Below, one piece after another: positions 1 through 60,644 of a stretch of 64,000 nucleotides of DNA. The notes below the pieces were generated by a model, which worked only from the letters and a program-made list of their open reading frames with translations, ran no database searches and was not told the origin of the DNA. Each line of letters opens with the position of its first letter. The first letter of the stretch is position 1. The DNA lies in assembly GCA_014526335.1 (NCBI GenBank), contig JACTAT010000044.1, positions 2,203,421 to 2,267,420 of the forward strand, given 5' to 3'. A program made the position numbers and the translations under genes. This DNA comes from Chrysaora quinquecirrha (lineage: Eukaryota; Cnidaria; Scyphozoa; Semaeostomeae; Pelagiidae).

Positions 1-4048
<4,048 letters not shown>

Positions 4049-7525: not shown

Positions 7526-7529
<4 letters not shown>
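7022..7529. other. Unassigned interval
   Basis: About 500 bp of non-repetitive sequence between the LTR element and the second satellite block. No ORF, RNA gene or inverted repeat stands out. Confidence 0.5.
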
Positions 7530-12725
<5,196 letters not shown>

Positions 12726-12739
12726 TTAATGATCTTTGA

Positions 12740-23513: not shown

Positions 23514-24579
23514 ATGGCTAATGCACAGAATCCATCTAATCTTCGTCCAGGTGAAGTAATGAAAGTGTATCTCATAATGTACAGTCAAGCAGTCCCTGAA
23601 GTTTTTAACCGGCAATCACGACTTGAAGACATCACAACTACTAGAGTTATCCAATGGGCTTGCTCACTGGAAAACCATGAGGAAGATGGCGTGCATTTCC
23701 ATATGTGTGTGCTTCTCAGCAAGCTGCAGAGGCGGAAGAAAGTCAAAATCAATATATATACCTAATCAGCATGAGATTGTTCTCAATTTCTCTGGTAATT
23801 TGGGCTATCATACTGCGCACCAGTATTGTATTAAAGAGGATGCTGACTTTCTTACCAGCGAAAATCATCCGGAGCGTGTACCTGCCCCCAAAACAGGGAA
23901 AGCTACCAAGGCGAAGCATTGCAAAGCTACGAAGAAGAAGAAGCGATTATCGAACTTACAAGTTTCCAACGTCATAGTGAAAAATAACATCCATTCTCGT
24001 GTGCATCTTCTGACATTTGTAAAAGCTCAGTCATCCAAGTCTTTGTACGAGTTCATTCTCAATAAAGGAGCCAAAAAATCCAATGAATTGTCGGAGGCTG
24101 TGTGGGAGATGGAGGGTGCGAAAGAGAAAATTGACAAGGCTTCTTTGTCACGATTGCAGATCCTCCAACAGCAGCTGCAACAGAAATGTGTTAGTGAGGG
24201 CAAATGGCTTATGTGCGCTCTGGAGATCCTCGAGAAGAATGGCATCGAGAAACCCGTTTTCTGTGATGCCATTGTCAAGTTGCTTGTCATGGGGCGGGGG
24301 AAGGGGCGCAACATATTCATCAGTGGCCCAGCCAATTGTGGCAAAGCCTTTATATTAGACCCCTTGAGAGTCGTTTTCAAGATCTTCTTGTCTCCTGCAA
24401 CTTGCTTTTATGCTTGGCTTGGGGTAGAGGATAAAGAAGTTATCTTTTTGAATGACTTCAGATATTCACCCGTCATCTTACCTTCGAGTGACACGCTGCT
24501 ACTTCTAGAAGGTCATGCTGTCCATTTCGCTTCTGCAAAAACGTCTTACATAGACAGAGAAAAAACCATAACAATCTGA
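23514..24579 (+). pseudogene. HUH endonuclease / SF3 helicase Rep-like gene, 5' part
   Basis: The start at 23514 opens MANAQNPSNL. A Rep-type HUH nuclease follows, with VIQWACSLENHEEDG and then the metal-binding H-F-H (H61, H63) in GVHFHMCVLL. A frameshift in an AT run at about 23748-23762 moves to the next frame, where the catalytic segment GYHTAHQYCIKED (Tyr at 23805-23807 and 23824-23826) is found. A basic linker (KATKKKKR) and a helical region lead to an SF3 helicase: Walker A GPANCGKAF (about 24324-24350), with Ala where Thr/Ser is expected, and Walker B EVIFLNDFRY (about 24431-24466). The match ends at FASAKTSY at about 24552. The missing C-terminus of the same family is at 36028-36240 on the same strand. 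Such genes are scattered in cnidarian genomes and resemble replication proteins of circular ssDNA viruses and related mobile elements. This copy is dead. Confidence 0.8.
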
Positions 24580-25052: not shown

Positions 25053-25146
25053 GTAAGATTAAGAGGGACACTTGGAGGCATTCCTATCGTATTTCGTTGT
25101 CAGAGGTGAAATTCTTGGATTTACGAAAGACGAACAACTGGGAAAC

Positions 25147-25985
25147 AGGGAGCGCGAAGCGCGGGAGGCGAAACGACCAATGAAATGCGGTTTTCTGATG
25201 TGTGATGCAAAATTCGAATTGCGCTTCGAGGCGAAATCGAGCTGTGTCATGAAATTTTTGACCCTGTAAAATTGAAGGATGATATTTTGTTTTTACTGTT
25301 TTCACTTTAGATCTGGGATAGGTAAGTTTTTGACTGATTGTATTAGGTTTATTATGCTTTTCTTTTGATTTTTGTGCAAGTTTAACAACTGTACAAATAA
25401 ATTTATCCGAATTTTAGCCGTTTTAGTACGACAGTGAGACGTTGGCCTAAGCTACAATAAAACTCTTAGCTGCAGGCGGCTTTCAATTTTCTCTCAGGAA
25501 TGTTAAAGAATGTTTGCGCTTTCAGCATAAAAATGTTACCACATGCATGGCCAGTCTATGTGTTTAAACTTTTCTTGCAATATTTTGCCGCTTGCGAGAT
25601 ATTGAGAGAGGAAGACATCTGAATAGTTTCTTGTCGACTCTGGCCTTGTTTTTATTTTTGCATCTTGTTGTTTTGTATTTATATCAATGATACTGTGCAA
25701 AAAGTAATCAAAATACTCACAAACAAAGAACGTTATAATAAAAAACCGACATACGGTTATCAGAGAGAAACATTCTGTTAATTTCTAAGGTTTTTAAAAT
25801 AAATGCAACATGAATTTGAATTTTAAACCTTTATGATTCAGTACGTAAAATGTGGTAGAACACGAAGAACACAAGACGCCATTCACAATTTCTATTCTAG
25901 TTTTCCCGCCCCGACCCAGTCCTCTGCATCACACATAAGAAAACTGTCCACCGGGCGTTTCGCCTCCCGCGCTTCGCACTCCCTG
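25147..25985. mobile_element. Nonautonomous hAT element (MITE) inside the 18S pseudogene
   Basis: An 839-bp insertion flanked by a perfect 8-bp target duplication CTGGGAAA (25139-25146 and 25986-25993). Terminal inverted repeats start CAGGGAGCGCGAAGCG (left) and, read inward from the right, CAGGGAGTGCGAAGCG. They match almost perfectly for 30 bp and remain similar to about 66 bp (both carry ATGTGTGATGCA). 8-bp duplications and CAGGG ends are hallmarks of the hAT superfamily. The interior has no transposase frame. Confidence 0.93.
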
Positions 25986-26210: not shown

Positions 26211-26425
26211 TTAAGGAATTGACGGAAGGGCACCATCAGGAGAGGAGCCTGCGGCTTGATTCGACTCAACGCGGCTCAACGTGGGAAAACTCACTGGTAA
26301 GGATTAACAGGTTGAGAGCTCTTTCTTGATTCTATGGGTGGTGATGCATGGCCGTTCTTAGTTGGTGGAGTGATTTGTCCGCTTAATTCCGTTAACGAAC
26401 GAGACGTTAACCTGCTAATTAATCA

Positions 26426-26890
26426 GCCCCCTTTTCCCCCCATAAGAAAGTACAACAGAGAAACAGTGACTTATGAACAGGTAGCATTAATCAACTATCA
26501 ATAGCATAACAATCAAAGCATACATTTTTCTACATTAAATTCACTAAATACCGTATGTGGGCTTTGGAAATGTGAAGTGGCAAGAAGCACTCTAAAGGTT
26601 GGACAAATACCGCCGTTGGTAGGTGAAGTACCCCTGTGGGCAGGCAATGCCAGACTTTGTTTATGGAATATGTTTTTGGTGTGCTGGTGTGTCCTAGCGA
26701 TACAGAGTGCCAGGTCTCTGTCGTCTAGGGGGGACCAACAATCCAGAAATTGGGTGCACAGATGCCGAGAGGAGGCCGTGTTCCCAAGGCAACACCCGTG
26801 GTCAACTCTGGTGTGAAATATGCAAGTTGTGGTTTACTTGGAAGATTTTGGTTGTAGTTGTAGTCTGTTCTGGGGGAAAGTGCAGTTATA
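26426..26890. other. Unassigned interval
   Basis: Follows the 18S fragment and precedes the DIRS recombinase remains. It may include the 3' non-coding end of the DIRS element, but no inverted terminal or internal complementary repeats could be recognised. Confidence 0.4.
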
Positions 26891-27560
26891 TTAGTTTTTC
26901 ATAGCTTGAACATGACAAAGGTGGTTCTTGGTAGCTCCAATAGAAAGTAAAATTCCTTGGCGAAAGGGATCTGTTTTTGATGATTTAAGTCTCACTTGAC
27001 TAAACTCTTGGTTGGAAAAAGATGGTCGAAAGATGATATCCGTGGCTGCAAGGTGGATATCTGGATCAAAAACTTTGTCAAATGTGAATTCGCTGATCCT
27101 CAAAAAACCAAAGAATGCCAAGCAGATTGCGGCCCAAAGCATTTTGTTATCATTGCAGCTGTGTTGGTGCAGCGGTTGTAGAAAACTAGAGAACATATTG
27201 AGATGAGTTGGGGTGATTGGTCTTCGAACATAATTTAAGGTCCCTTGCGATCTTTTGATCCCCTAAGGAGATATTGTAATCGGTTGAATCTGTGTAAAGG
27301 TAGCTCGTAGTTATTTTTAAAGTGAAGATGTTTCACTGCTGCTAAGTAACTTTTTATGGTGGCATGCCGGGTTGTTTGGGCCAAGAATGTTGCAAAATAG
27401 CAAAGAATTTCTTCATTGGTTGGAAGCATGCTTCCCAGTTCATGAACCCGAAAAAGATGAAAAAATCGCAGAATTGTTGTTCACCTGTCATATAGCTCTT
27501 TTTAGTTGCTGCTGCCAAAGAATTGACCGAAAACTGGTCCTGGAGGATTTTCAGAGCTGC
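26891..27560 (-). pseudogene. DIRS tyrosine recombinase, frameshifted and truncated
   Basis: 27429-27235 encodes the N-terminal core-binding part, including LPTNEEILCYFATFLAQTT and TIKSYLAAVKHLHF. A one-base shift follows, and 27240-26891 encodes the start of the catalytic domain, including CLAFFGFLRISEFTF with the first catalytic Arg, then VRLKSSKTDPFRQG, as in DIRS/Ngaro/Crypton recombinases. The downstream HxxR box and nucleophile Tyr are missing. The upstream leader (PEQIPTSILQLWKSS) is in other frames. The enzyme would normally integrate circular cDNA without a target duplication. Confidence 0.8.
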
Positions 27561-27589
27561 AAAATGCTGGTGGGTATCTGCTCTGGCAT

Positions 27590-28140
27590 TTAGTTTGCAT
27601 GCGGGGCAAGCTGACGGAACCTTGTGACCTGGAAGCGAGATAGAGCATCAGCCATTTCATTGGACACCCCTGGGACATGCTGGACTCTGAAATAAAAATT
27701 ATGCTGCAAAGTAAGCAAGGTTAGATAGCGCACAAGCTGCATTAGTGTTTTGGGCATTTAGCTTTTTTCCCATTTACAATGTGTACTACAGATAAATTGT
27801 CACATTTGAATAACACCCTTTTTGTTGTCCATTGCTTACCCCATATTGCGCATGCGGCAATTATTGCATATAACTCCAGCCAAGCGATTGTTATCTGGCC
27901 CTGTCCTAGTGTTTGGTGAGGTTGCCAGGCTCCTTGGAACCACTGTGAACCATGAATGCCCCCAAAACCGTGCAGCCCCAAGGCATTTGTATGCAACAAC
28001 AAATCGTCGGAAGATTCCCAATAATTATTTAAGAAAAACGCCTTGCCGTTCCAGGAAGCAAGAAATTGCTGCCACATTTGGATATCTGCATGAAATTCCT
28101 GGGTTAGTCGAACGTGATGAAATGGCTTCCGAATTTTAAA
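27590..28140 (-). pseudogene. DIRS RNase H domain, frameshifted
   Basis: The frame is open from about 28140 through RKPFHHVRLTQEFHADIQMW, SWNGKAFFLNNYWESSDD, QITIAWLELYAIIAACAIWG and LFKCDNLSVVHIVNG. These are the Glu and Asp blocks of the DIRS RNase H. A one-base shift at about 27755 is needed to continue into TLMQLVRYLTLLTLQHNF and VPGVSNEMADALSRF, the last acidic residue of the active site and the linker to the recombinase. Confidence 0.8.
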
Positions 28141-28186
28141 GGGCTACTACCACCATATCGTATTTTTGTGTTTCTGGCTAGTTTTA

Positions 28187-28248
28187 GATGCCAAAACACG
28201 TTCTGTAACTTTTAAATTTGATAATTACCTCATTAACACGCCTTTTAA
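28187..28248 (+). repeat. Left inverted repeat of the THAP transposon
   Basis: About 62 bp matching the reverse complement of 33330-33391 with only one or two differences. Confidence 0.92.
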
Positions 28249-28376
28249 ATCTTCCGAAAAGACGAAATCATAACAGTTTCTTGGAAATGTTGCTTTCTTC
28301 CAAAAGGGTCAACGAAATAAAATCCCTGTGTGGCCTTTCACAAAATTTTGCAAGAAGTTTTATTACAGCAAAGAAA

Positions 28377-31300
28377 ATGCCTGATCGTTGTGTTGTGGCG
28401 AATTGCTCCAACACAAATAGCTCTTTTTATACTGCTCAAGGAATATCCTTGACTAGAATTCCATATTTTGGTGATAAAAGGCCTATAGCAAAGCAACGAC
28501 GAAAGCTGTGGGTTAATTTTGTACAGAAGAGGAGAGCCAAATGGATCACCACAGAGCACTCAGTCATTTGCTCAAACATTTTAAGCCATCCGATTTTGAA
28601 CAACCAAAAATTGTAATACCTGGTTTTACAAAAAGATTCAAGCCAGTTTTAATAAGAGATGAAATTGGAATCACAGCTGTGCCAAGCATTCATGCCCCCC
28701 AGTTCGACGAAGAAGCCTGTCAGAAAGTCTCACAAAGAGAGAAGAGAAATGTAAGTACCAAGTCTTATACATTTGAAAGTTTTCAATACATTTCATTTTA
28801 CAAAAATGTACAACCAGAAATGTTCAAACTCGTTGTGTTTTTTTTAGACTGTAAGGAATGTCATGAAATCATTTCAAGTCATCCCACAAACTTCAAATAA
28901 TGAGCCCGAGATTAATATTGAACAGGAGGAGATGCAGCCATTGAATGTGTTTGAGCCTGAAGAACCACAGCCTTTTTGTGAGTGTCTAAAATTTAAATTT
29001 ACAGATTTATTAGAAATTTCAAACATTTAAGGAAAATAATATCATAAGTAAACATAATTGAAGCAAAGTGGAACTCAAAAATGAAACTTTTATGTTTTAA
29101 ATTGTAGCATCAAGTCCTTCTAAAACGAAAAATTTCCTTGTTCAAATTGCAAGCTTGAAAAGAAACGAATCCGAAGACTGAACGACCAGTATCTTGCAGT
29201 AATATACAAATTTAATAAAATGAAGAAATATGTCAAAGAGCTCGAAGGTAATGAGATCAGATAATATATTATTACATTGTTAACTGTTGAATGCTAATGT
29301 GCTACTATAGTTATGCCAGAAGCATGGTTGCCTATGCTGTACCCTGCTTCTGGCACCCTTCTATTCTGATGATGAAATGGATATTGATGTAGATTGCCAA
29401 GAAGAAAATTATGATGATTCTTATGATTCTGATGACAGTTTGGATGAATGCAAGGAGATGTGAGTAAATATGGATGTAACTTAAGTAATGTATATAAATT
29501 AATCATATTTTCAATCTTGCCTTTCAAAATCTCTGTTGATGATCTTTTTTTGTTGAACAGTTACTCTACAGAAAATGACGTAAAATCAGAGAAGAAGTTT
29601 ATTGTCTTTCTATCCGAGTTGTTACAATTATTCTCGTTCTGTCACACTTGCAAAGCTGATCATCCAGTCATAAAATCTTGGACTGTTGGTAGCATGATTA
29701 TCATTCAATCAACTTGTACAGACAGTGCCTGCAAGAAAGTAGAAACATGGAGGAGCCAGCCAAATATGCCCGGTACACAGAGACCAGCTGGAAATCTTTT
29801 GCTTTCATTCTCGATTTTGAATACTGGCGGATCACCCACCAAGTTCATCAGAGCCTTAGAGCAGATAAATGTATCCTCAATATCACTTTCCACATATTAT
29901 AGACATCAACGGGTAGGTTCTTTGTTATTTGAACTTCTTTCAAAAGTAATCCAGAAGCAGTAATTTAACATTTAATGGCAATTTTCTTTCAAGGAGTTTC
30001 TCTTTCCTACTCTTCAAATGCACTGGGAGGCATATCAGAAAGCAATGATAACCAAACTGGAGCAAAAATCAGAGCTCACAATTTCTGGAGATGCACGTCA
30101 TGACAGTATGGGCCACAGTGCAAAATTTGGCGCCTACACAGTTTATTGTAACGATACTTCTCAAATAATTCACTTCTCGCTTGTACAAGTAAGTGAACAC
30201 TGAAAAACTGTTTTCTTTTTCATACAAAAATTGCCATTTATGCATAAAATATACCTCTTGAACAATCAACAAGAAGATATTTGTATTTCTTTTCAGCGAA
30301 ATCAAGTTACCAGCAGTAGTGCAATGGAGTTTGAAGGTTTCAAGAACTGTTTTGATTATCTCCTGGAGGACAAAAAGCTCAGTGTAAAAAATTTCATATC
30401 GGATAGACACACAACAATTGCTAAACATATGAAAACGAACGTACATTCGATAAACCATTACTTTGATCTTTGGCACTTGAAAAAAAGTAAGTACAGCAGT
30501 TTTTCATAAATGGCAAACAGGTCATCCTTAGAAAATATGATATTACTTTACCTTTTTAATGAGGAGGGATCAGAACTTTTGAAAATTAATTTCTTCTTCA
30601 GAAATTCACAAACTCCTGCTTAAGATTTCAAAATTGAAGGGTTGTGCGTCACTTGAGTGCTGGATTAAGCCATGTCTAAGACACCTTCACTGGAGTGCAG
30701 TCTCAACACCAAGCGGAAATGGAGAAGTCATTTGGGCTAAATTCTATTCATTCCTATTTCACGTCCAGAATGTTCATGAGAATCTTCCTAATCCCATATT
30801 CAACAAATGTGCTCATTCATTAGAAATACCACCAAAAAAATGGTTGCAAAAAGGTACCTTGAATAATAATCAGCTATTCCTAAAATTAAAAAGCAATACT
30901 GTCATGCTACCAAAATTTGAAAAAAAAAACAAACAAAGAACAATGTAAGTAAAACCAACCTGTCTAAAGATTGAATTTTCTACTTTGCAGACACAATCGC
31001 TTTCCAGAAACTATCTGAAATTTTTGACAAGCCAGGGATAAAAGCAGGTATAATGCAAGCATCGCCAATTGCTCAGACTAGCTGCTTGGAGGCCTACCAC
31101 TCAGTTGTGAATCACTTTGCTCCAAAAATGATTGCCTTTACCTTTCCCGGAATGTATTGCAGGTTTGCAAATCTATAAATAGTGTTGTTGAAAATTGAAT
31201 TCTGTCATTTTCTGTATGATATAAAAAATTGAAATCTCAAATGTAACACAAATACTTACTTTCGATTTTAAGACTCATTCTATCAATGCTGCATTTCAAT

Positions 31301-32110
31301 GAGAACTTGTTTCGGGACAAGATAGTTGACACTGATGGGAAGCCAAAAGTTACAGTCACCTATCCGAAATTCAAAAATGGCGAAGCATCAGTAAAAAGTA
31401 CAAGGGTTCAACAGACATACAGTAAGTGACTCCAAACAATCGTTAATGCAAATTTGAAAAAGATACAAATTGTAACTAACAACTTAAATTCTATGTAACA
31501 ATTCTTACCCATGCCAGGATATATTCAGTCTGTATTTGACACTATGATGAGTGGTATTGCTGGAGACAAACTCGGAATTTTCAAAGAGCGAATTATGCAA
31601 ATGATACCAGCGCCGATGCATTCAATACTGGATAAAGAAGACAAGGTTTCTGCTGTTGAAAAGTTCATTGCACGCCAAAGTATGGTAACAAAGGAGGTTC
31701 CACCAACCACAGAGCCTGGTATGTTCTATGCATCAAAACTAAAATAAAAGAAATACGTTTTGCTAATACTGCCTTTGTTAACCCTGTTAAAGTTTACACA
31801 CACAGAAAAGTGTATCTCCTTGTCAAAGAAAATATGCACACTTAGAGATGACAATCTCTGTTTCTTCAAGCTGACCTTCCCATACACAAGGGTTGCACAT
31901 TGCATAAGAATTGCACACCACCAGAATGGGTGGTGAGGGTGGAGGTGCAGTGGAATAAAATCTAATTTTAATAATAAAAATCATCTTACAGCAACAACAT
32001 CAACTTCATCTGAAAGCAGCTCTGAAAGACGCAAGCCCAAATGCAAAGCATGTGGCAACCCTATGAAAGGACATAAAAATGTTTCATCCTGCCCAAAGAA
32101 TAAGGAATAA
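28377..32110 (+). pseudogene. 12-exon THAP-domain transposase gene
   Basis: Exons with GT-AG boundaries: 28377-28750, 28848-28977, 29108-29247, 29311-29459, 29561-29912, 29994-30188, 30297-30486, 30602-30853, 30991-31162, 31273-31421, 31518-31718, 31992-32110. From exon 5 to the TAA at 32108-32110 all splice phases agree. Exon 1 encodes a THAP DNA-binding domain (C5, C10, W45, C65), but a one-base loss at about 28572 falls between the last Cys and the His of HFKPSDFE. Exon 3 encodes CSNCKLEKKRIRRL and a coiled coil after an indel in an A run, and exon 4 is acidic with a further shift. Exons 6, 7 and 9 hold likely catalytic acids in SGDARHDSMGHSAKFGAY, FISDRHTTIAKHM / YFDLWHLKK and SCLEAYHSVVNHFAPK. 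The last exon has a zinc-knuckle-like CKACGNPMKGHKNVSSC. The superfamily is not certain; similar THAP proteins occur in fish and cnidarians. About 806 residues. Confidence 0.85.
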
Positions 32111-32159
32111 TTAATTTAACAGTGAGTAGTATAAAGTGTGTGAGTCCACACCTTGATTA

Positions 32160-33128
32160 TCAGTTATCTTCTTGAAACCCAACTTGTTCATTTGTTGGAA
32201 ACTTGTTCCTGATGGCATGATATGCACATGCAGGAAGAGGAATTCTTCTTTCCCCGAGCCTTCCATGTATAAGGCGGGTGAATTGCCGATATGCAACTGC
32301 TCTCATAAATCTATTAATATGAACAAAAAAGAATTTTTTAAAAGAAATCTAAGGGTGGAGGTCTCTTTCCTAAAATGATTGATAAATGTGTTTTTTAAAA
32401 AAAATCATCATGCACTTTGATTCAGAAATAATTCTTCTGTATCTGGCATTCAACTTAGTCTTGTACTTTTCAGCAGCAAGACGAAGAGTCCATCGAGACA
32501 AGCAAACAGGATTGAAGCCTGGATGAAGGGTGACACAAGGTGGAACCTGTCCAAACTCCTCAACAACTTCGACATCTATCAATGCTATACTGCAACCTTC
32601 GATTTCTTTACAACATTTGCATTCTTGGGGATTCATAAGTTTCTCTATACTGCAATGACCGCAGCTGCACCTAGAATATTTGAAATAAGGTCTTCATATT
32701 CTTCAACAGGAACTGTTGGGTAGATAAGAACATTTGAAGAACGGTTTTAAAATGCAAGACCAATGAATACTTTCGGGCCTTTACAACCAAACGACAAACA
32801 ACTATATATATAGGTACAAGAAGATAGCTCACCAGTTCTCAACCAAGTCGGTCCCATCAAGTCGTCGTCTCAAGCGAGCTTCCTCTTCATTAGCTACCCT
32901 AACTTCTTCCTGATATCTTTGAATCCATTCTTCATCAGCCAAAGGTTCATCTCTGTATGGCTCAGCGACATCAAAATCTGCTTCATCTTCGAGCTCCAGG
33001 TTATCATCCACAACAGGCCTAGGCCCAGCTCCCGCGAATCCATCCTCCTGTTCTTGCTGAAAATTTAAGCTATTCGCAACAGAAACGTCACCAATAGATT
33101 CTTCTGACTCTGAATCGTAATTCGACAT
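32160..33128 (-). CDS. P2X7-ballast-like cysteine-rich protein encoded by the transposon
   Basis: Three exons on the minus strand: 33128-32833, 32670-32416 and 32310-32160, with donors CTG/GTGAGC and AA/GTGCAT and acceptors ATTCTAG and TTAATAG. The spliced length is 702 nt, exactly 233 codons plus stop, with no internal stop. Residues 1-98 are acidic with a Glu/Arg-rich coiled-coil segment (66-90). The first junction completes Trp99 and opens a cysteine cluster WCSCGHCSIEKLM, then ECKCCKEIEGC (C100, C102, C105, C116, C118, C119, C125). Further on are PPCVTLHPGFNPVCL, then across the second junction SKFMRAVAYRQFTRLIHG, then IPLPACAYHAIRNKFP and VGFQEDN at the end. This order matches the cytoplasmic ballast domain of P2X7 receptors, which binds zinc through cysteines. 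No transmembrane segment or P2X channel core is present. The role in the transposon is unknown. The gene is convergent with the transposase. Confidence 0.82.
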
Positions 33129-33329
33129 TTTAATTCTAATGCAGGAGCACAAGTTTTTTAAAATACCGGAGGAAAAATCAGTAAGCAAACTATGAACGCA
33201 CGCACAACGAAGCTTGAGATCTTTGATTGATTCAGTTCAGCAGGTATTCCGGGATCTACGTCACAGAAAGCCTCGACCCAGTCCCCAAATTCAGCGTTTT
33301 TCTCACTGAATTTTGAATTTTTGGAGGTG

Positions 33330-33391
33330 TTAAAAAGCGTGTTAATGAGGTAATTATCAAATTTAAAAGTTACAGAACGTGTTTTGGCATC
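33330..33391 (-). repeat. Right inverted repeat of the THAP transposon
   Basis: Inverted copy of 28187-28248; similarity extends about 6 bp further out (AGTTTT) and then stops at DIRS coding sequence. Confidence 0.92.
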
Positions 33392-33397
33392 AAAACT

Positions 33398-34180
33398 TTA
33401 AGGCTTGATTGGCACTCTGCTTCCCCTCTACGAGCATCAGGACCAGGCTCCATGATTAGGAAGTCATCGAGGAAGTGGCACACGAAAGATATTGCACACT
33501 TTTCAACCAGTATCCATTCAATGGCCTCAGATAGCTGGTTAAAAAGAAAGGGGGCACTACGAAGACCAAAAGGGAGGAATTTCTCGAAATAGTATTTACC
33601 TTGCCAACACATTCCCAGTAGTTCCCAATCATCTGGGTGTACAGGAAATAACCGAAAGGCAGACTCGATGTCGGTCTTTGCCATGTAAACATTTGGGCCT
33701 AGCAACTGGATGTGTTGAATGGCTTTATCTACAGACACATAGCTCAGCGAGAAATCTTCCTTGGCAATGAAAGAGTTAATAGAATCGCCTAATTTTGGGT
33801 AAGAGAGATGGAAAATGGTACGGAATTTCTCTGAGTGCTTTTTTGGGATAATACCAAGAGGAGAAACCTGAAAGTTCGGCAGAGGCGGTTGATCAAATGG
33901 ACCGGCTGTTCTTCCCAAAGAAACTTCGTTGGCAATATTATTGCTGACTTTACCTGGATTTGAGGCGGCTGTCGGCAAGTTGCTAGCTTACCTACTTATT
34001 CTTGGGCCATTGTAGCCAATTCGAGCCCCTTCTTTTAGTTCCGTGCACAATTTCTTGACAAAGTTTTGATCTGGATGGGTTGAAAGTTGCTCTTCGAGGA
34101 CCTTGACCTTTACCGGAGTGACGGCGGGATCTAAATCAAAGCATTGTTTATCATAGAATTTCAACAGGAGGGAGACAAAA
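33398..34180 (-). pseudogene. DIRS reverse transcriptase, interrupted
   Basis: The frame can be followed from KFYDKQCFDLDPAVTPVKV (about 34180) to an in-frame TAA at 33988-33990. It then runs open through SPLGIIPKKHSEKFRTIFHL, VYMAKTDIESAFRLFPVH (first catalytic Asp), FLPFGLRSAPFLFNQL and CHFLDDFLIMEPGPDARRG (catalytic L-D-D) to the border of the inserted transposon at about 33398. The final residues of the open frame are supplied by the transposon end. The thumb is missing. This is the DIRS-specific RT type with FLDD in place of YxDD. Confidence 0.85.
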
Positions 34181-38469: not shown

Positions 38470-41400
38470 TCAAAGTTCTTCATCTTCTTCATATTCGAGA
38501 GTCCCTCGTATATTCTCTGTTGCACAAGCTGCAGCTCTTCTCTTCGGTCGATATTCCTGTGCTTCAACATTCAACGTCGATTTCTTTTCGATTGGCCAGT
38601 CGCAATGAAGTTCCAACGGATAAAGAAACTGTATCGGTCTTTCCAGCTCTCCTTTCCCGGTACGCAACTTCACGACTCGTACTACGCCATCTCTTCCCGG
38701 AATCATTGCTGTGACGATCGCCATTCTCCACCTTCCTCGGTTCTTCTCTTCTCCTTTTACGATGACTACGTCGCCAATTTTCAAATGTGGTTGATTTGCA
38801 GTATACGAACAGTCATGCCTCTCTCTAAGGGCTTTGAGGTACTCTGACTGCCAGCGTTTCCACATTGCCTCTTTACATCGGATCAAGTATTTTGCTCTTT
38901 TCCGCAAGTCTTTGTCTTCAATGCTGGCGCTGTTTTCTTCCGGCAGTAGGTTGGGTTTCCCAAAGATCAATATGTTTGGTGTCAGAGTGGGCAGTTGAAC
39001 ATCGTCTTCGCAATACGACAGCGGTCGATTGTTCAAAACAATTTGTATGTCAAGCAGGACTTCTTGCATCTCATTAAATGTCAACTTTGCTGCCCGATCA
39101 CTTTGTAAAGGCAGCTTTTGACAATGCTGACCATTCTCTCAAACAGTCCTCCCCACCAGCTTCCACGGCTAACGTTGAATTGCCATCTGATTTGGTATTC
39201 TTTGAGATGTTCTTGTAACCTTTCATGTTTCCATATTTTGTCAATCCATTTTGCAGCTGCAATAAAGGTTCTGCCGTTGTCTGAAATTATCTTTCGTGGT
39301 CTGCCTCTCGCAACAATGAAGCGTTTGAAACTCATCAGGAATTCTTCACATGACATGTTCGGCAGAAATTCCAGGAATAGGCCACGGGTCAGGCTACAGG
39401 TGTAAAGAATGATGTAACCCTTGCAATCTTGTCTTCTTTCTCCCTTGTATATGATTGGGCCAGCAAAATCGAGCCCCACTACGTCAAAGGGAATGCTTCC
39501 TTCTGATCTTTCTTTCGGCAAGTTACCAACAGGTGGTTCAGGCAATGGAGTTGCTTGGAACCTCTTGCAGCCATGACAACTCTTTCTTATTTTCTTTGTG
39601 ACAGTTCGTAGTTTGGGTATCCAGAATGTATCACGGACTTTTGCCATGGTCAATCCGACTCCCCCATGTAAGGCTTGTAGATGGGCTTGTTCGACAAACT
39701 TCTCTGTTACGATGTGTCTAGGTGGGAGGTATACAGGGTAGTCTCCCTGAATTCGTCCCTTACAGATGTAAATTCCATCTTCATTCTCTTGTAAATTGAG
39801 GGTCTTGGCATTTTCTTTGAACTGATGTGTCTCTCTGACATCTTGTTGGGCACGTTTGATGAGAAACTTCTGTTGCTTTTCAATCTCATCAAGTGTCAAC
39901 TGACCCTTTTCCACTTTGGTTCCTCTACATTTAGCGATGAATCTGCTAATCCAGGCTAAAATTCTTGTGGTTTTCCAGATTGGCTTCTTTTCAATCAGCT
40001 TGTCGATCTGATCAGGAGTTCTTTCTGTACAGATCTTCATTATCTCCTTAACAAGTTTCTTCTCAGCATCTGACTCATCTGTTGCTTTGATTGTGATTTC
40101 TTCAGGCCATGTATTTTGCGATTGTAGCCACTCAGGTCCGTTTCTCCACTTCTCGCCCTTGAGGTTAGTTGTTCCACGGCTTCCGATGTCGGCAGGATTC
40201 TCATCAGTTGGCACGTATCTCCAAGTAGCTGACTTTTCCTTTATCTTCTTTACACGGTTGCCGACGAACTGCTTGTATTGGCCGTCACCTCTTATCCAGT
40301 GGAGAAATACAGTGGAATCTGTCCAAGCATATCTTTTGGATACTGGATAATGCTGAAGTGCTTGAGCTGTGTTGTCAAGTAAGTTCACAACCATATGGCA
40401 TGCAACTAATTCAAGCCTTGGAATAGTAAGATCTCTTTTGGATAAGCGTGTCTTTGATACCAGAATGCCTTGGTTACTGGAGCCTTCTTGAACTACAACT
40501 GCGTAGATAACAGCACAGCAGCCCAGGAGACTTGCATCAGCGAATCCATGTAGTTCCACTGCAATCAGGTTATCTCTCTTCAAGGGAATAGATCTTGGAA
40601 TGATAAACTCTCTTGGTAGGCTGTTGACCCATTTCTCCCATCGTTTCTTCAATTCATCTGGAAGTTCAACATCCCAAAGGATCTTCTTGTCGCAAATGTC
40701 TCTGAAAATGACTCTAGCTGTCAACAGGATCGGAGAGACTATGCCAATTGGGTCATAAACCTTTGCGATACTTCTTAGGACAACTCTTTTTGTAGGAGAT
40801 TCATTGATCATCGGAAAAGTGACTGACAATGTGTCTTGGCTTTTGTCTCATGTCAGACCTAGCAACTTTGTCTCAGCCTGGTTTGTACCAAGACTCTCCT
40901 TCGCATAAGTGAGTTCACAGTCACTTGTTGCTTGTTCTTCTAGTTCAGGTACGTTAGAGTGCCATTTATGCAGTTCGAATTTCCCATCACTGAAGATCTT
41001 GATAGCTGTTTCTTTCATTTCTCTTGTCTCATCAACGGAACTTGCCCCAAGGTTAATGTCATCGACGTATATCCCTTCACTTAGCTCACTGACAAAATTA
41101 GGATAGACTTCCTTGTATTTCTCAAGATGTTGTTCAAGTGTTCCATTCAAAAGAAAGGGACTGGGAGCCAAACCGAAAAGTACTCTAGTAAGTCTGTAGA
41201 CAGTTTGCTTCTTGGTTTCCAGATCCTCAATCCACAGAAATCTGAGTGCATCTCTATCGATTTCTCTAATGACGATTTGTAAAAATGCTTGTTTCATGTC
41301 CCCAGCTAGGTAAACAGGTTTAAATCGAAGTCTGATTAGAATGTCCAAGATCTTCCTCTGGAGCGGTGGACCAATCTCCAAGCACTGATTGAGAGAAGGG

Positions 41401-43262
41401 GATGTGCAGTTTGCTTTTGCGGATGCATCATACACTATGCGCAGCTTCGTTGTTTCGGCCTTTTCCTTTATGACAGGTTTGTGTGGTATATAATGTTCCT
41501 TGTTCTCTGATTTCTCTGGCGCAATCTCCACTATTCCTTCCTGGATTTGTGCTCGTATTATGTCATCATAAGCTTTGAAAATCTCTGGTTGGCTTTCCAA
41601 TTTCTTTGTCAGAGAATTGAATCGAGCTCTTGCCACAGCAAAGTTTGTTGGCAAGTCTGGATGGTTTGCTTTCCAAGGTAAGGATGTCTCGTATCTTCCA
41701 TCCGGTCTCTGTGTTAGCTGATCTTTAAAGTCTTCATACACTGCGAGCTGATCGCCTTCAGGCTTATCTTCTAAGCCTAGAACATCCAAATTACACATTT
41801 GCATATAATCGTCTTGAGAGTTTCTTGCAAACATCAAAGTTGACTGGACATTGCCTTGGCCAGGAGACATTATCACCCATCCAAGTTTGGTTTTTTCTGC
41901 AATCGGTTGTCCCATTTCACCAACTCTTGCTGGGGTCTGTGTCTTTATCAGAGCATACTCACTTGCCCCTAAGATTGCATGGATGGGCAAATTCTCTTTT
42001 TGGTCATCATCGTTCATCTTTATACCTTGTGGGTGTGCGTTTGCTGTTATTACTTCTTTGTATCGTGGGTTTGGTATTGAAAGTAGCACTTTCCTCTCAA
42101 CTGCATTCATCTCTACATTAGCTTTGAAGTCATCATTTGTACCTGCCAGCTCAACATCATAGACTTTGATTGTCCTTGTTGTGTTCTGGAACATCATTTC
42201 TATCGTCTTTGATTCCTGCCTCACTGGTTCTCTTCCAATCATGTCTACCAAAGTAGAAGACATATAGGAGTTGCTTGCCCCAGTATCTAACAAGGCTCTG
42301 CATGTGATTCCTTCGATCTTTACAACCACCACTGGGTGTATCACTTGTTTGCTTGCAGCGGCTGTCAACAGTTGATTATGTTCTCTTCTATCACATATTG
42401 AGGTATGATGCTTCTTGTGGCAAATTCTACAGCTCAGTTTACTTTTGCAATCATTGGCTCGGTGTTTTCGCCAGTACAATTGAAGCATAGTTTTTCTGGC
42501 TTAGGATTTTCGTCTTTCTTCAGTTCCTTTCACATCTTCACATTCTGTTGGTTTGTGATCAGACTTCCCACAATAGGCGCATTCTCTTGCTTTGTTGTGA
42601 TCCCGCGTGTTGAAGTTTTTCTCTCTGTTGCTGTCACTTGCATACAATCTTCCCTCTCTGTTGGTAGCTTGAATTGGATTTCGATCAACCCATTGTTTTA
42701 TGGCCTCAATGAGATCATGGAAGTTCCATTGTTTCCAATTTGTGTCTGTCCTTGTCAGGTCAGCTCTAATTCCATCAAGTTTGTCTAATACCATTCTTAC
42801 ATTTCCAGTTACTTGTCCTAGCTTACCCAAAGTATCAAGTGCTTGGACATGAGAAAGCAGCTGATCATAGAAATCATGTATTTTGTACTTTGAAATCCCA
42901 TGGATGACAGGAAGACCCATTATCTGCTGCAAATGAGCATTGACTACCTCGGATACATCTCCATATCTCTCTTCTAGCATTATTTTGGCCCTTTTATACC
43001 CTTCAGCGTCTGGTGGCAATTTATCGATAACTATTCTGACTTTAGGAATTACCAGCTCTTTCAGATAAGAGAACTTTGCTTCTTCTTTCAGTGCTGACTG
43101 ATCAATCTGAGATTCGAAAAGACTCCAGAATCTCACCCAGTCTAGATGGGTTCCTTGAAACTTTGAAATCTGAAGATCTGGGAGCTTTGTTTTTAGACGT
43201 TTTTTCTCTGCAAGTTCCAATTTCTTTTCTTCCAGCTCAAGAGAAAATTTCTCTTTTCTTGT
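38470..43262 (-). pseudogene. BEL/Pao gag-pol pseudogene, copy A
   Basis: Compared with copy B, it lacks codons 1 to about 161. Three one-base losses lie in the zinc-knuckle region (about 42465-42515: one in a T run before CGCC, one in TTTTTCTGG, one in GGATTTTCG). A Trp codon becomes TGA at about 40848, and a single C is lost at about 39090 between integrase and the C-terminal domain. The blocks between these lesions keep protease, RT with YVDD, RNase H, integrase and the C-terminal domain, with only scattered substitutions. Reading through LTR sequence creates a spurious N-terminus for the gag remnant. It cannot make a full polyprotein. Confidence 0.93.
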
Positions 43263-43673
43263 TGTGGTGAATTTAGTCGATAACCACAAATATTTGGGTG
43301 TAAGAATAACAAGAATATAAAAATGAGCAATCCAGATATGCAGCAAACAGCGAAATTTTAAGATTAAACCAAAACAGCGAAGCGTAATATAATAAAGTTT
43401 TAAAACGAACGATAAATCACTACGAAACTTATGCCATGTATGAATTCTGGCGGTCAATAATATAAATAAAATTGTTCCTTCTCTCTCACGTAAGCTAAAT
43501 CGTTGAAATTAGCTTTTTAGATCTCGAAATCACTCACTGAAGTTCACCTTTTCCACTTCACTCAAAAACTGTTTTCGCATGTTACTTAGCAACTAAAGAT
43601 AAAGGATTAACATAACAAAACAAATTAATCGGATTAACTAGAAATAAAGAAATAAAGTCGAATGTTCACGACA
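43263..43673 (-). repeat. LTR shared by BEL/Pao copies A and B
   Basis: A 411-bp LTR, TGTCGTGAAC to CACCACA in element orientation. It acts as the 3' LTR of copy B, preceded by a polypurine tract (43674-43683), and abuts the truncated gag of copy A on the other side. About six single-base differences or indels from the 413-bp LTR at 49050-49462, roughly 98.5 percent identity by eye. Confidence 0.92.
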
Positions 43674-43712
43674 CTCTCCCCCTATTTGACATCGAAGACG
43701 TCAAATACAGGT

Positions 43713-46700
43713 TCAAAGTTCTTCATCTTCTTCATATTCGAGAGTCCCTCGTATATTCTCTGTTGCACAAGCTGCAGCTCTTCTCTTCGGTCGATATTCC
43801 TGTGCTTCAACATTCAACGTCGATTTCTTTTCGATTGGCCAGTCGCAATGAAGTTCCAACGGATAAAGAAACTGTATCGGTCTTTCCAGCTCTCCTTTCC
43901 CGGTACGCAACTTCACGACTCGTACTACGCCATCTCTTCCCGGAATCATTGCTGTGACGATCGCCATTCTCCACCTTCCTCGGTTCTTCTCTTCTCCTTT
44001 TACGATGACTACGTCGCCAATTTTCAAATGTGGTTGATTTGCAGTATACGAACAGTCATGCCTCTCTCTAAGGGCTTTGAGGTACTCTGACTGCCAGCGT
44101 TTCCACATTGCCTCTTTACATCGGATCAAGTATTTTGCTCTTTTCCGCAAGTCTTTGTCTTCAATGCTGGCGCTGTTTTCTTCCGGCAGTAGGTTGGGTT
44201 TCCCAAAGATCAATATGTTTGGTGTCAGAGTGGGCAGTTGAACATCGTCTTCGCAATACGACAGCGGTCGATTGTTCAAAACAATTTGTATGTCAAGCAG
44301 GACTTCTTGCATCTCATTAAATGTCAACTTTGCTGCCCCGATCACTTTGTAAAGGCAGCTTTTGACAATGCTGACCATTCTCTCAAACAGTCCTCCCCAC
44401 CAGCTTCCACGGCTAACGTTGAATTGCCATCTGATTTGGTATTCTTTGAGATGTTCTTGTAACCTTTCATGTTTCCATATTTTGTCAATCCATTTTGCAG
44501 CTGCAATAAAGGTTCTGCCGTTGTCTGAAATTATCTTTCGTGGTCTGCCTCTCGCAACAATGAAGCGTTTGAAACTCATCAGGAATTCTTCACATGACAT
44601 GTTCGGCAGAAATTCCAGGAATAGGCCACGGGTCAGGCTACAGGTGTAAAGAATGATGCAACCCTTGCAATCTTGTCTTCTTTTTCCCTTGTATATGATT
44701 GGGCCAGCAAAATCGAGCCCCACTACGTCAAAGGGAATGCTTCCTTCTGATCTTTCTTTCGGCAAGTTACCAACAGGTGGTTCAGGCAATGGAGTTGCTT
44801 GGAACCTCTTGCAGCCATGACAACTCTTTCTTATTTTCTTTGTGACAGTTCGTAGTTTGGGTATCCAGAATGTATCACGGACTTTTGCCATGGTCAATCC
44901 GACTCCCCCATGTAAGGCTTGTAGATGGGCTTGTTCGACAAACTTCTCTGTTACGATGTGTCTAGGTGGGAGGTATACAGGGTAGTCTCCCTGAATTCGT
45001 CCCTTACAGATGTAAATTCCATCTTCATTCTCTTGTAAATTGAGGGTCTTGGCATTTTCTTTGAACTGATGTGTCTCTCTGACATCTTGTTGGGCACGTT
45101 TGATGAGAAACTTCTGTTGCTTTTCAATCTCATCAAGTGTCAACTGACCCTTTTCCACTTTGGTTCCTCTACATTTAGCGATGAATCTGTTAATCCAGGC
45201 TAAAATTCTTGTGGTTTTCCAGATTGGCTTCTTTTCAATCAGCTTGTCGATCTGATCAGGAGTTCTTTCTGTACAGATCTTCATTATCTCCTTAACAAGT
45301 TTCTTCTCAGCATCTGACTCATCTGTTGCTTTGATTGTGATTTCTTCAGGCCATGTATTTTGCGATTGTAGCCACTCAGGTCCGTTTCTCCACTTCTCGC
45401 CCTTGAGGTTAGTTGTTCCACGGCTTCCGATGTCGGCAGGATTCTCATCAGTTGGCACGTATCTCCAAGTAGCTGACTTTTCCTTTATCTTCTTTACACG
45501 GTTGCCGACGAACTGCTTGTATTGGCCGTCACCTCTTATCCAGTGGAGACATACAGTGGAATCTGTCCAAGCATATCTTTTGGATACTGGATAATGCTGA
45601 AGTGCTTGAGCTGTGTTGTCAAGTAAGTTCACAACCATATGGCATGCAACTAATTCAAGCCTTGGAATAGTAAGATCTCTTTTGGATAAGCGTGTCTTTG
45701 ATACCAGAATGCCTTGGTTACTGGAGCCTTCTTGAACTACAACTGCGTAGATAACAGCACAGCAGCCCAGGAGACTTGCATCAGCGAATCCATGTAGTTC
45801 CACTGCAATCAGGTTATCTCTCTTCAAGGGAATAGATCTTGGAATGATAAACTCTCTTGGTAGGCTGTTGACCCATTTCTCCCATCGTTTCTTCAATTCA
45901 TCTGGAAGTTCAACATCCCAAGGGATCTTCCTGTCGCAAATGTCTCTGAAAATGACTCTAGCTGTCAACAGGATCGGAGAGACTATGCCAATTGGGTCAT
46001 AAACCTTTGCGATACTTCTTAGGACAACTCTTTTTGTAGGAGATTCATTGATCATCGGAAAAGTGACTGACAATGTGTCTTGGCTTTTGTCCCATGTCAG
46101 ACCTAGCAACTTTGTCTCAGCCTGGTTTGTACCAAGACTCTCCTTCGCATAAGTGAGTTCACAGTCACTTGTTGCTTGTTCTTCTAGTTCAGGTACGTTA
46201 GAGTGCCATTTATGCAGTTCGAATTTCCCATCACTGAAGATCTTGATAGCTGTTTCTTTCATTTCTCTTGTCTCATCAACGGAACTTGCCCCAAGGTTAA
46301 TGTCATCGACGTATATCCTTTCACTCAGCTCACTGACACAATTAGGATAGACTTCCTTGTATTTCTCAAGATGTTGTTCAAGTGTTCCATTCAAAAGAAA
46401 GGGACTGGGAGCCAAACCGAAAAGTACTCTAGTAAGTCTGTAGACAGTTTGCTTCTTGGTTTCCAGATCCTCAATCCACAGAAATCTGAGTGCATCTCTA
46501 TCAATTTCTCTAATGACGATTTGTAAAAATGCTTGTTTCATGTCCCCAGCTAGGTAAACAGGTTTAAATCGAAGTCTGATTAGAATGTCCAAGATCTTCC
46601 TCTGGAGCGGTGGACCAATCTCCAAGCACTGATTGAGAGAAGGGGATGTGCAGTTTGCTTTTGCGGATGCATCATACACTATGCGCAGCTTCGTTGTTTC

Positions 46701-48986
46701 GGCCTTTTCCTTTATGACAGGTTTGTGTGGTATATAATGTTCCTTGTTCTCTGATTTCTCTGGCGCAATCTCCACTATTCCTTCCTGGATTTGTGCTCGT
46801 ATTATGTCATCATAAGCTTTGAAAATCTCTGGTTGGCTTTCCAATTTCTTTGTCAGAGAATTGAATCGAGCTCTTGCCACAGCAAAGTTTGTTGGCAAGT
46901 CTGGATGGTTTGCTTTCCAAGGTAAGGATGTCTCGTATCTTCCATCCGGTCTCTGTGTTAGCTGATCTTTAAAGTCTTCATACACTGCGAGCTGATCGCC
47001 TTCAGGCTTATCTTCTAAGCCTAGAACATCCAAATTACACATTTGCATATAATCGTCTTGAGAGTTTCTTGCAAACATCAAAGTTGACTGGACATTGCCT
47101 TGGCCAGGAGACATTATCACCCATCCAAGTTTGGTTTTTTCTGCAATCGGTTGTCCCATTTCACCAACTCTTGCTGGGGTCTGTGTCTTTATCAGAGCAT
47201 ACTCACTTGCCCCTAAGATTGCATGGATGGGCAAATTCTCTTTTTGGTCATCATCGTTCATCTTTATACCTTGTAGGTGTGCGTTTGCTGTTATTACTTC
47301 TTTGTATCGTGGGTTTGGTATTGAAAGTAGCACTTTCCTCTCAACTGCATTCATCTCTACATTAGCTTTGAAGTCATCATTTGTACCTGCCAGCTCAACA
47401 TCATAGACTTTGATTGTCCTTGTTGTGTTCTGGAACATCATTTCTATTGTCTTTGATTCCTGCCTCACTGGTTCTCTTCCAATCATGTCTACCAAAGTAG
47501 AAGACATATAGGAGTTGCTTGCCCCAGTATCTAACAAGGCTCTGCATGTGATTCCTTCGATCTTTACAACCACCACTGGGTGTATCACTTGTTTGCTTGC
47601 AGCAGCTGTCAACAGTTGATTATGTTCTCTTCTATCACATATTGAGGTATGATGCTTCTTGTGGCAAATTCTACAGCTCAGTTTACTTTTGCAATCATTG
47701 GCTCGGTGTTTTTCGCCAGTACAATTGAAGCATAGTTTTTCCTGGCTTAGGATTTTTCGTCTTTCTTCAGTTCCTTTCACATCTTCACATTCTGTTGGTT
47801 TGTGATCAGACTTCCCACAATAGGCGCATTCTCTTGCTTTGTTGTGATCCCGCGTGTTGAAGTTTTTCTCTCTGTTGCTGTCACTTGCATACAATCTTCC
47901 CTCTCTGTTGGTAGCTTGAATTGGATTTCGATCAACCCATTGTTTTATGGCCTCAATGAGATCATGGAAGTTCCATTGTTTCCAATTTGTGTCTGTCCTT
48001 GTCAGGTCAGCTCTAATTCCATCAAGTTTGTCTAATACCATTCTTACATTTCCAGTTACTTGTCCTAGCTTACCCAAAGTATCAAGTGCTTGGACATGAG
48101 AAAGCAGCTGATCATAGAACTCATGTATTTTGTACTTTGAAATCCCCTGGATGACAGGAAGACCCATTATCTGCTGCAAATGAGCATTGACTACCTCGGA
48201 TACATCTCCATATCTCTCTTCTAGCATTATTTTGGCCCTTTTATACCCTTCAGCATCTGGTGGCAATTTATCGATAACTGTTCTGACTTTAGGAATTACC
48301 AGCTCTTTCAGATAAGAGAACTTTGCTTCTTCTTTCAGTGCTGACTGATCAATCTGAGATTCGAAAAGACTCCAGAATCTCACCCAGTCTAGATGGGTTC
48401 CTTGAAACTTTGAAATCTGAAGATCTGGGAGCTTTGTTTTTAGACGTTTTTTCTCTGCAAGTTCCAATTTCTTTTCTTCCAGCTCAAGAGAAAATTTCTC
48501 TTTTCTTGCAAGCTTAGCCTCTTCAGCTTCTCTCTCATCTTTTCTCACCTTTTCTTTCATCTCAGTTTCCAGCCTAAGTTGCTCTGCTCTTTCCCTCTCA
48601 AGCTTTTCCTGCTCAATTCCATGTAACATTGAATTCAATTCAAACATACCATCTTCAAATGGTTGGATTTGGGTAGTTATTTCCTCTGACCAAGCATCAA
48701 TATCTGTCTCATCTTGTCCTTGGTCGATACATAAACCTTGAATCTCGTGAATTAGATCATAGGCTTCTTCAGTCTTAGTTTTCAACAGATTATATTGTCT
48801 CTTGATTTGATCACTTTTACTGGCTTGTAGAACATCTCGAGTAGATTTGTGGTAGTAGTTGAGTTTTCTCAAAGTTGAATTAAGCGAAGTTTTCATGTTC
48901 TCAATCTCAGTAGCTTCATCTTTTTCACCATCATCTTCTTGTCTCGGTCTGCTAGGCTCTCTGGTTTTGCCTCTTGTAGTCGCCAT
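43713..48986 (-). CDS. BEL/Pao gag-pol polyprotein
   Basis: An intact 1757-residue ORF, ATG at 48986. Domains in order: a coiled-coil, Glu/Lys-rich N-terminus (about 120-185); the Pao-type gag core (about 186-350); zinc knuckles CAYCGKSDHKPTEC (387-400), CFNCTGEKHRANDC (419-432) and CRICHKKHHTSIC (438-450); an aspartic protease with ALLDTGAS (483-490); reverse transcriptase with GDMKQAFLQI (D815) and IYVDDINLG (catalytic 892-895); RNase H with ELHGFADASLLG (about 1063-1074) and AWTDSTVCLHW (from 1139); a His/Cys zinc-binding integrase N-domain (about 1354-1392); and an integrase core with D1425, D1488 and E1535 (GSWWGGLFER). A C-terminal domain with KIGDVVIVKGE and RPIQFLYPLEL is typical of this family. 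Gag and pol are one frame, so no frameshift signal is needed. It could encode all activities for transposition. No envelope gene. Confidence 0.96.
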   Translation of the reverse strand: MATTRGKTREPSRPRQEDDGEKDEATEIENMKTSLNSTLRKLNYYHKSTRDVLQASKSDQIKRQYNLLKTKTEEAYDLIHEIQGLCIDQGQDETDIDAWSEEITTQIQPFEDGMFELNSMLHGIEQEKLERERAEQLRLETEMKEKVRKDEREAEEAKLARKEKFSLELEEKKLELAEKKRLKTKLPDLQISKFQGTHLDWVRFWSLFESQIDQSALKEEAKFSYLKELVIPKVRTVIDKLPPDAEGYKRAKIMLEERYGDVSEVVNAHLQQIMGLPVIQGISKYKIHEFYDQLLSHVQALDTLGKLGQVTGNVRMVLDKLDGIRADLTRTDTNWKQWNFHDLIEAIKQWVDRNPIQATNREGRLYASDSNREKNFNTRDHNKARECAYCGKSDHKPTECEDVKGTEERRKILSQEKLCFNCTGEKHRANDCKSKLSCRICHKKHHTSICDRREHNQLLTAAASKQVIHPVVVVKIEGITCRALLDTGASNSYMSSTLVDMIGREPVRQESKTIEMMFQNTTRTIKVYDVELAGTNDDFKANVEMNAVERKVLLSIPNPRYKEVITANAHLQGIKMNDDDQKENLPIHAILGASEYALIKTQTPARVGEMGQPIAEKTKLGWVIMSPGQGNVQSTLMFARNSQDDYMQMCNLDVLGLEDKPEGDQLAVYEDFKDQLTQRPDGRYETSLPWKANHPDLPTNFAVARARFNSLTKKLESQPEIFKAYDDIIRAQIQEGIVEIAPEKSENKEHYIPHKPVIKEKAETTKLRIVYDASAKANCTSPSLNQCLEIGPPLQRKILDILIRLRFKPVYLAGDMKQAFLQIVIREIDRDALRFLWIEDLETKKQTVYRLTRVLFGLAPSPFLLNGTLEQHLEKYKEVYPNCVSELSERIYVDDINLGASSVDETREMKETAIKIFSDGKFELHKWHSNVPELEEQATSDCELTYAKESLGTNQAETKLLGLTWDKSQDTLSVTFPMINESPTKRVVLRSIAKVYDPIGIVSPILLTARVIFRDICDRKIPWDVELPDELKKRWEKWVNSLPREFIIPRSIPLKRDNLIAVELHGFADASLLGCCAVIYAVVVQEGSSNQGILVSKTRLSKRDLTIPRLELVACHMVVNLLDNTAQALQHYPVSKRYAWTDSTVCLHWIRGDGQYKQFVGNRVKKIKEKSATWRYVPTDENPADIGSRGTTNLKGEKWRNGPEWLQSQNTWPEEITIKATDESDAEKKLVKEIMKICTERTPDQIDKLIEKKPIWKTTRILAWINRFIAKCRGTKVEKGQLTLDEIEKQQKFLIKRAQQDVRETHQFKENAKTLNLQENEDGIYICKGRIQGDYPVYLPPRHIVTEKFVEQAHLQALHGGVGLTMAKVRDTFWIPKLRTVTKKIRKSCHGCKRFQATPLPEPPVGNLPKERSEGSIPFDVVGLDFAGPIIYKGKRRQDCKGCIILYTCSLTRGLFLEFLPNMSCEEFLMSFKRFIVARGRPRKIISDNGRTFIAAAKWIDKIWKHERLQEHLKEYQIRWQFNVSRGSWWGGLFERMVSIVKSCLYKVIGAAKLTFNEMQEVLLDIQIVLNNRPLSYCEDDVQLPTLTPNILIFGKPNLLPEENSASIEDKDLRKRAKYLIRCKEAMWKRWQSEYLKALRERHDCSYTANQPHLKIGDVVIVKGEEKNRGRWRMAIVTAMIPGRDGVVRVVKLRTGKGELERPIQFLYPLELHCDWPIEKKSTLNVEAQEYRPKRRAAACATENIRGTLEYEEDEEL

Positions 48987-49026
48987 AAATATTCAAGTTT
49001 GCACCCAAATTCAAGATATATCGCCA

Positions 49027-56206: not shown

Positions 56207-57442
56207 TTAGAATCCATAACGGTCCGGAAAGTGGACTCTCCGTCCTGAACGAGTGACGCGTGGCGTTGTCAAAGTCGATGGTTGTTGTTCTTGCTCTGTA
56301 GTGGGCGGTTTTGAAGTTGGAAGATCCTGAATGGTTGTTGGAAATGCAGAAAATGATAAATATGCGGTGTCTAAGTGTGCTACTTTCAGGCGATCTATGC
56401 TGATTGTCTGTTTTTGATTTTTGATTTCGAGAACAAAGTGTTTGTCGTTGCGCTGGGGCACTTTGAATGGGCCATCGTAAGGTGTTTGCAATGGCTTTCG
56501 AACGGCGTCGTGGCGGACAAAAGCATGCGTACAAGTAGCAAGATCGGCGGGAATGTAGGATGACGTGGTTTGTTGGCGAAGTGGAATGGATGACAAATGT
56601 TGCATGGCGAATTGTAGACGATGAGCATAGTTGGTTGGATCAAGATCAGCGATGTTGGTTGATTGCTCGAAGAACTGTCCGGGTAAGCGAAGTGTTGTTC
56701 CAAAAACGAGTTGCGAAGTTGTACAGTTGATATCAGCTTTGATGGTTGTGCGAATTGTGAGAAGTATGAGAGGAAGGATTTCAGACCATTTGCTAGAATC
56801 AGGATTTGCCTTGATTGACGACTTAAGCTGACGGTGAAATCGTTCTACCATACCATTTGCACAGGGATGACATGACGTGGCTCGGATGCGTTGAATACCG
56901 AGAAGCGATGTGAGTGAATGGAAGAGAGCTGATTCAAACTGGGCTCCACGATCGGTGGTGAGTGTTGATGGAACGCCGAAATGGGCAACCCAATGTTGGA
57001 CGAAATGACGAGCAACGGTGTCTGCAGTGACATCTGGGATGGGAATGGCTTCGGGCCAACGGGTGAATCTGTCGATGCATGTGAGCAAGTATCGAGAACC
57101 ATTTGATGGTAGCAGTGGACCAACGATGTCAATATGGACGTGTGAAAAGCGTGCGTCTGGAGTAGTGAAAATGCCGAGAGGTGCAACTGTATGTCGTTGA
57201 ATTTTGGCTTTTTGACACTGAATACAAGAGCGAGTCCATTGTCGAACATCGGAGTTGATACTAGGCCAGACATAGCGATCGGTGATGAGATTTTGTGTGG
57301 CTCGAATACCAGGATGGGACAGTGAATGCAGATGATCAAAAACAACACGACGAAATGAGACTAGAACGTATGGTCTTGGTGTACTGGTGGAAGTGTCAGA
57401 TAGGATGGTGCCGGATGAATCTGGAATGGGAATTGCTTTCAA
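56207..57442 (-). CDS. Gypsy integrase part of pol (after a frameshift)
   Basis: 411 codons, in the frame one base from the preceding pol segment. The zinc-binding N-domain has HLHSLSHPG (H39, H43) and CIQCQKAK (C73, C76). The integrase core has D105 (HIDIVGPL), D164 (TTDRGAQFE) and E200 ([12 protein letters not shown]), the expected D-x58-D-x35-E. The C-terminal part has [20 protein letters not shown], a GPY/F-like module. The first residues of this open frame are not a real start: in-frame sequence upstream ([14 protein letters not shown]) shows it was continuous with RNase H before a one-base indel at about 57500-57511. Confidence 0.9.
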
Positions 57443-60320: not shown

Positions 60321-60644
60321 ATTTAATTAATATACACAGAAGAACAGTTAAAAATTTGAATATTTGGCAAAAAATAACAACGAATGTACGAACGAACACG
60401 TGCAACGAATATTGCGAAATAACGAAGTGACGAAATGTTTGTAACCACGTACACAGAAAGAACGTGAGTAGATTGCCAATGTGAAATACCAAAGTTTTTG
60501 AATACGATGAATAGCTAAGTTCTTTTTGAAAATATATTACACGAATGAATTGACTGATAAAAATTGTTCTTTGATGATTGATAAAACGAATTGTAAATAT
60601 TTGAATAACGAATAAGTTGAATACCAATGTTTTGAATCTTTCGA

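Follow-up and report, generated by a model that had tools for sequence, protein, structure and literature searches.

The closest described systems are the Kol0 lineage of Kolobok DNA transposons and the C-terminal ballast domain of the P2X7 receptor. In the sections of Kojima and Bao (2022, PMC9587614) drawn on here, Kol0 elements, reported in cnidarians among others, encode a protein named KolX beside the DDD/E transposase; KolX is similar to residues 476-595 of human P2X7, has the ballast fold and carries seven conserved cysteines, P2X7 is stated to stem from a fusion between KolX and a P2X4-like gene, and Nanor is viewed as a likely domesticated KolX. The same sections give RR/YY ends for Kolobok and a C/DxxH signature common to Kolobok, hAT, P, MuDR and Dada. 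In the parts of Rump et al. (2020, PMC7016195) used here, the ballast domain is found outside P2X7 across Metazoa and its capture by a P2X4-like gene is proposed; the string 'transpos' is absent from the main text, and an Ixodes protein is described in which a 'TAHP' domain precedes the ballast region; if THAP is meant, this could be another transposon link. Among the papers listed for KolX and for P2X7 with Kolobok, PMC9587614 was the one source found to make the ballast-transposon claim; the others listed for KolX belong to unrelated fields. Here we analysed a 64,000-nucleotide (nt) window of the Chrysaora quinquecirrha genome (contig JACTAT010000044.1), in which 28180-33397 is, with high confidence, a Kolobok DNA transposon of Kol0 type, carrying two convergent genes, a THAP/DDE transposase on the plus strand and a KolX-like gene on the minus strand (Table 1).

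The element is bounded by inverted arms, which places the KolX-like gene inside inverted repeats as the first-pass annotation had stated. The arms were first found as 86 nt at 90% identity and are extended by one gap to 28180-28268 and 33397-33310; the longest exact inverted repeat (24-42 kb searched) is 55 nt, compared with at most 19 nt in 20 shuffles. The termini AG...CT, with the end point taken where the arms cease matching, fit the 5'-RR/YY-3' rule of Kolobok. Sequence searches found neither the repeats nor the KolX-like gene anywhere else within the window, the best extra matches having E values of 0.58 and 0.64.

The three-exon KolX-like gene is real. Its exons have GT-AG borders and total 702 nt from ATG to stop, encoding 233 residues; the splice proposed earlier was reproduced by recomputation, and tblastn of relatives falls on the same stretch and strand, with residues 42-225 of P0001 matching 32978-32166 (E 1.4e-55) and P0003 and P0005 also matching the exons. 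Among the database open reading frames, P0021 has an insert at the first intron position and P0020 at the second, so that relatives seem to share both positions. Residues 1-92 are acidic (28 D/E versus 8 K/R), and a long helix is predicted in P0001 at residues 57-82. As had been claimed from the letters alone, the product is P2X7-ballast-like: Pfam PF20478 (P2RX7_C) matches it with 42.1 bits against a cut-off of 23.5, whereas a profile search of Protein Data Bank (PDB) sequences ranked P2X7 first but weakly (E 0.0056). Structure and cysteines agree with the ballast assignment, since the predicted fold of a KolX relative matches the ballast fold and the seven putative zinc-site cysteine positions (WCxCx2C, CC, C(I/V)T, LPxC) are present. 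The identification as KolX follows the published description of that protein.

The transposase gene (28377-32110, many exons) confirms the earlier call of a THAP-transposase element, with a Pfam THAP match at its start (28.7 bits, cut-off 23.9). Six exons, beginning with the acidic one at about 29359 and running to 31162, join through GT-AG introns into a single open frame, and the five core exons among them (29561-29912, 29994-30188, 30297-30486, 30602-30853 and 30991-31162) gave, as a stitched query, at least 75 relatives (best E 1e-144); the named ones among the matches listed are mostly cnidarian, plus three fish, a lancelet, a scallop and a sea cucumber. In a ten-row alignment of the core (A4), D391 (N in one row), D395, D459, D480LWH483 and E604 are kept, which would correspond to the Kolobok DDD/E residues with the C/DxxH between the second D and E; the catalytic roles, including the choice of D391 or D395, were assigned here. 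A likely zinc finger lies between the DxxH and the last E, where H514, H545, C556 and H558 are invariant or nearly so in A4; this ligand set was chosen here, H540 being another candidate. H2CH is the name used for the Kolobok-type zinc-finger pattern in the part of PMC6004289 consulted. Relatives also have the zinc knuckle that is encoded here by the last exon (KCKACGNPMKGHKNVSSC, 31992-32110), and the two genes end tail to tail, 49 nt apart (32110 and 32160).

The first-pass annotation had further described the partner transposase as decayed. On the one hand, tblastn of P0025, P0034 and P0040 covers the THAP exon in two abutting frames, so that the frame switches inside the domain, at a lesion near 28,575; a second lesion probably lies within 29.0-29.36 kb, because part of this interval could not be read through. 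On the other hand, general decay is not supported, as the spliced catalytic core is open and the last exon is retained, and with about two lesions the word is too strong. Given the frame change in its THAP exon, this copy is probably non-autonomous. The intact KolX-like frame was considered as proof of selection and dismissed: by a hand estimate, 0.7 kb would have gathered about 0.6 lesions and would be lesion-free about half the time, and finding a short frame intact next to a longer gene with about two lesions is no evidence of selection.

The pairing of the two genes recurs elsewhere. When 40 KolX-type contigs and 66 transposase contigs among the matches listed were compared by hand, three KolX-type contigs were linked to a transposase gene by consecutive locus names and equal contig size, namely QZH41_012091/012090 (482,746) and QZH41_008384/008383 (162,862) in Actinostola and LOC114539600/LOC114539599 (310,116) in Dendronephthya, the KolX-type gene being named first. 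The count of three is a floor, because each genome's genes are only partly covered by the lists, and the other 37 contigs neither support nor refute linkage. Together with the inverted repeats here, these adjacent pairs support the earlier claim of a mobile setting. It is very unlikely that a host ballast (nanor-like) gene was instead captured as chance cargo by an unrelated THAP transposon: ballast genes are indeed described, in the parts of PMC7016195 used, as short genes of the host whose neighbourhood is conserved in some invertebrates, and the 37 unmatched contigs, in lists far from complete, would also suit this view, but the same pairing at three loci in two cnidarians argues against it, as does the KolX gene described for Kol0 elements in PMC9587614. 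Still less weight falls on a chance resemblance of three exons that form no gene, which is practically negligible. Both introns were picked by eye and the second-intron acceptor was partly free, as nine acceptors give different ends and three (32310, 32301 and 32259) retain the ballast C-terminus, 32310 yielding the 233-residue product; this explanation is already contradicted by independently predicted relatives that align through both junctions, and the Pfam match and the fold match of a relative stand against it as well.

The class of the element leaves slightly more room for doubt, although a P-type or MuDR-type transposon is highly improbable. In its favour, THAP domains are carried by P elements too, and the transposase core gave partial matches to Pfam PF20700, labelled 'Mutator-like', at E 2e-5, below the cut-off; the C/DxxH signature is likewise found in hAT, P, MuDR and Dada (PMC9587614, in part). 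Kolobok is favoured by the RR/YY termini with TTAA on one side, the H..H..CxH pattern between DxxH and E, and the presence of KolX as described for Kol0. Several results nevertheless weigh against the Kol0 assignment: the weak Mutator-like label itself; the lack of the name Kolobok on any of the transposase-core matches listed; the two transposase stretches that do not read through; the absence of a size match for 37 of the 40 KolX-type contigs; the PDB profile match, which stays above 0.001, and the lack of any match at E 1 when the single KolX-like sequence was run against PDB sequences; and the left end, preceded by GGCT (28176-28179). As TTAA stands on one side only, no target-site duplication is shown. 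Joining the flanks did not rebuild a clean empty site, and since the right-flank reverse-transcriptase frame does not read on into the left flank, we suspect that part of the left flank is missing, possibly by deletion. Compared with the Kol0 lineage as described in the consulted sections of PMC9587614, the locus shares the two genes, the predicted ballast fold with conserved cysteines, the cnidarian host, the C/DxxH and the RR/YY ends; no difference in kind was found, this copy being distinguished by its broken THAP exon and one-sided TTAA.

The retroelement apparently entered by the transposon is split, with 26891-28143 on one side and the RVT_1 frame on the other. The frames of 26891-28143 recall ribonuclease (RNase) H and tyrosine recombinase, two of them gave nothing above cut-off in a Pfam scan, and the split element is presumably DIRS-like.

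Relative to the ballast domain of P2X7 (6u9v and later entries), the KolX-like protein lacks a channel part and has in addition an acidic N-terminus as well as an EPLAD motif; Pfam reported no P2X channel domain for the 233-residue product at E 1. P2X7 has one cysteine (C506) where KolX has two invariant ones about 19 residues apart (C125 and C144), and the PDB profile alignment pairs C506 with C125 in one stretch and with C144 in the other. The Nanor or 'ZCD' proteins are likewise short with a C-terminal ballast domain, but are treated as host genes in the parts of PMC7016195 used. One fish protein named 'P2X purinoceptor 7-like' (P0166, 221 residues) shows 33% identity across 180 alignment positions and has the ballast region as well as a PYxDEP stretch in common; it therefore seems to be a free protein of KolX or Nanor type and not a channel. 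The earlier suggestion that the P2X7 domain came from a mobile source matches the published proposal (PMC9587614) and is not novel. The central link between the P2X7 ballast and Kolobok having been in print since 2022, the locus is a further copy of a known thing. It provides an independent sequence-level confirmation that the ballast domain of an ion channel matches a transposon accessory protein, and adds a KolX gene with two introns, set convergently to a many-exon transposase gene, along with linkage of the two at three loci of two cnidarians.

Cut-and-paste is the mode of the Kolobok superfamily. The transposase would bind the inverted repeats through its THAP domain and cut and paste the element at TTAA, while the acidic tail and helix of KolX would tether the zinc-binding ballast domain, which would dock either on the transposase or on a protein of the host and thereby help or regulate transposition. 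A small docking or regulatory accessory factor fits the acidic N-terminus, the long helix predicted in P0001 and the ballast domain, and is a tentative proposal that we put somewhat short of an even chance. The P2X7 C-terminus would descend from such a KolX, as published in PMC9587614. There is also a small chance that KolX kept working in trans after its own transposase failed, as a regulator for other copies or through host takeover; if true, the locus would show, at an early stage, the type of domestication from which Nanor and P2X7 came.

Table 1. Features of the transposon and its insertion site (window positions; exon lengths in nt)
Feature	Position	Strand	Basis or detail
Kolobok-type DNA transposon (very probable), 5,218 bp, termini 5'-AG...CT-3'	28180..33397		inverted repeats
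Left terminal inverted repeat	28180..28268	+	blastn to other arm 89.9% over 89, E 3.5e-29
Transposase exon with THAP domain, frame change near 28,575	28377..28750	+	Pfam THAP E 2.4e-6; tblastn P0025, P0034, P0040
Transposase exon 2, inferred	28848..28977	+	GT-AG, open frame; outside every tblastn piece
Transposase middle part, frame readable only from ~29,359	29000..29459	+	coiled stretch 29136-29247, acidic exon to 29459
Transposase catalytic core (putative), five exons, open when spliced	29561..31162	+	translation, tblastn, relatives
Transposase C-terminal part	31286..32110	+	tblastn pieces to 32104, translation
KolX-like gene exon 3, AYRQFTRLIHG, LPACAYHAIRNKFP, stop codon	32160..32310	-	151 nt
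KolX-like gene exon 2, CSCGHC, ECKCC, CVTLHPGF	32416..32670	-	255 nt
KolX-like gene exon 1, acidic N-terminus, EPLADEEW motif	32833..33128	-	296 nt
Right terminal inverted repeat	33310..33397	-	inverted match to left arm
Reverse transcriptase frame of retroelement apparently entered by transposon	33373..33987	-	Pfam RVT_1 E 1.4e-9
TTAA directly outside right end	33398..33401		flank sequence

Other mobile sequences are found in the window. An element of about 840 bp at 25146-25985, with 33-nt inverted ends (CAGGGAGCGC...) and an 8-bp direct repeat CTGGGAAA on its flanks, is one we take to be a non-autonomous hAT element. Two very similar Pao elements stand in tandem at 38470-48992 by frame reading, one with an open frame of 1759 residues and the other broken in several frames. 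Retroelement frames occupy 56207-60326, with reverse transcriptase, RNase H and protease identified by Pfam in 57442-59475 and two neighbouring frames that are integrase-like and gag-like by look. A 333-residue open frame at 23578-24579 had no Pfam match at E 0.1; its GPANCGKA stretch recalls the SF3 helicases of parvovirus-like replicases. Rfam gave two matches over the whole window, both outside the Kolobok element: a tRNA, and a eukaryotic small-subunit ribosomal RNA fragment at 26270-26542 (87 bits, model 1194-1485) amid transposon sequence. Tetranucleotide arrays with units TAGT and AGTT run over 47-4031 (about 4.0 kb, 78% matches) and 7526-12728 (about 5.2 kb, 72%).
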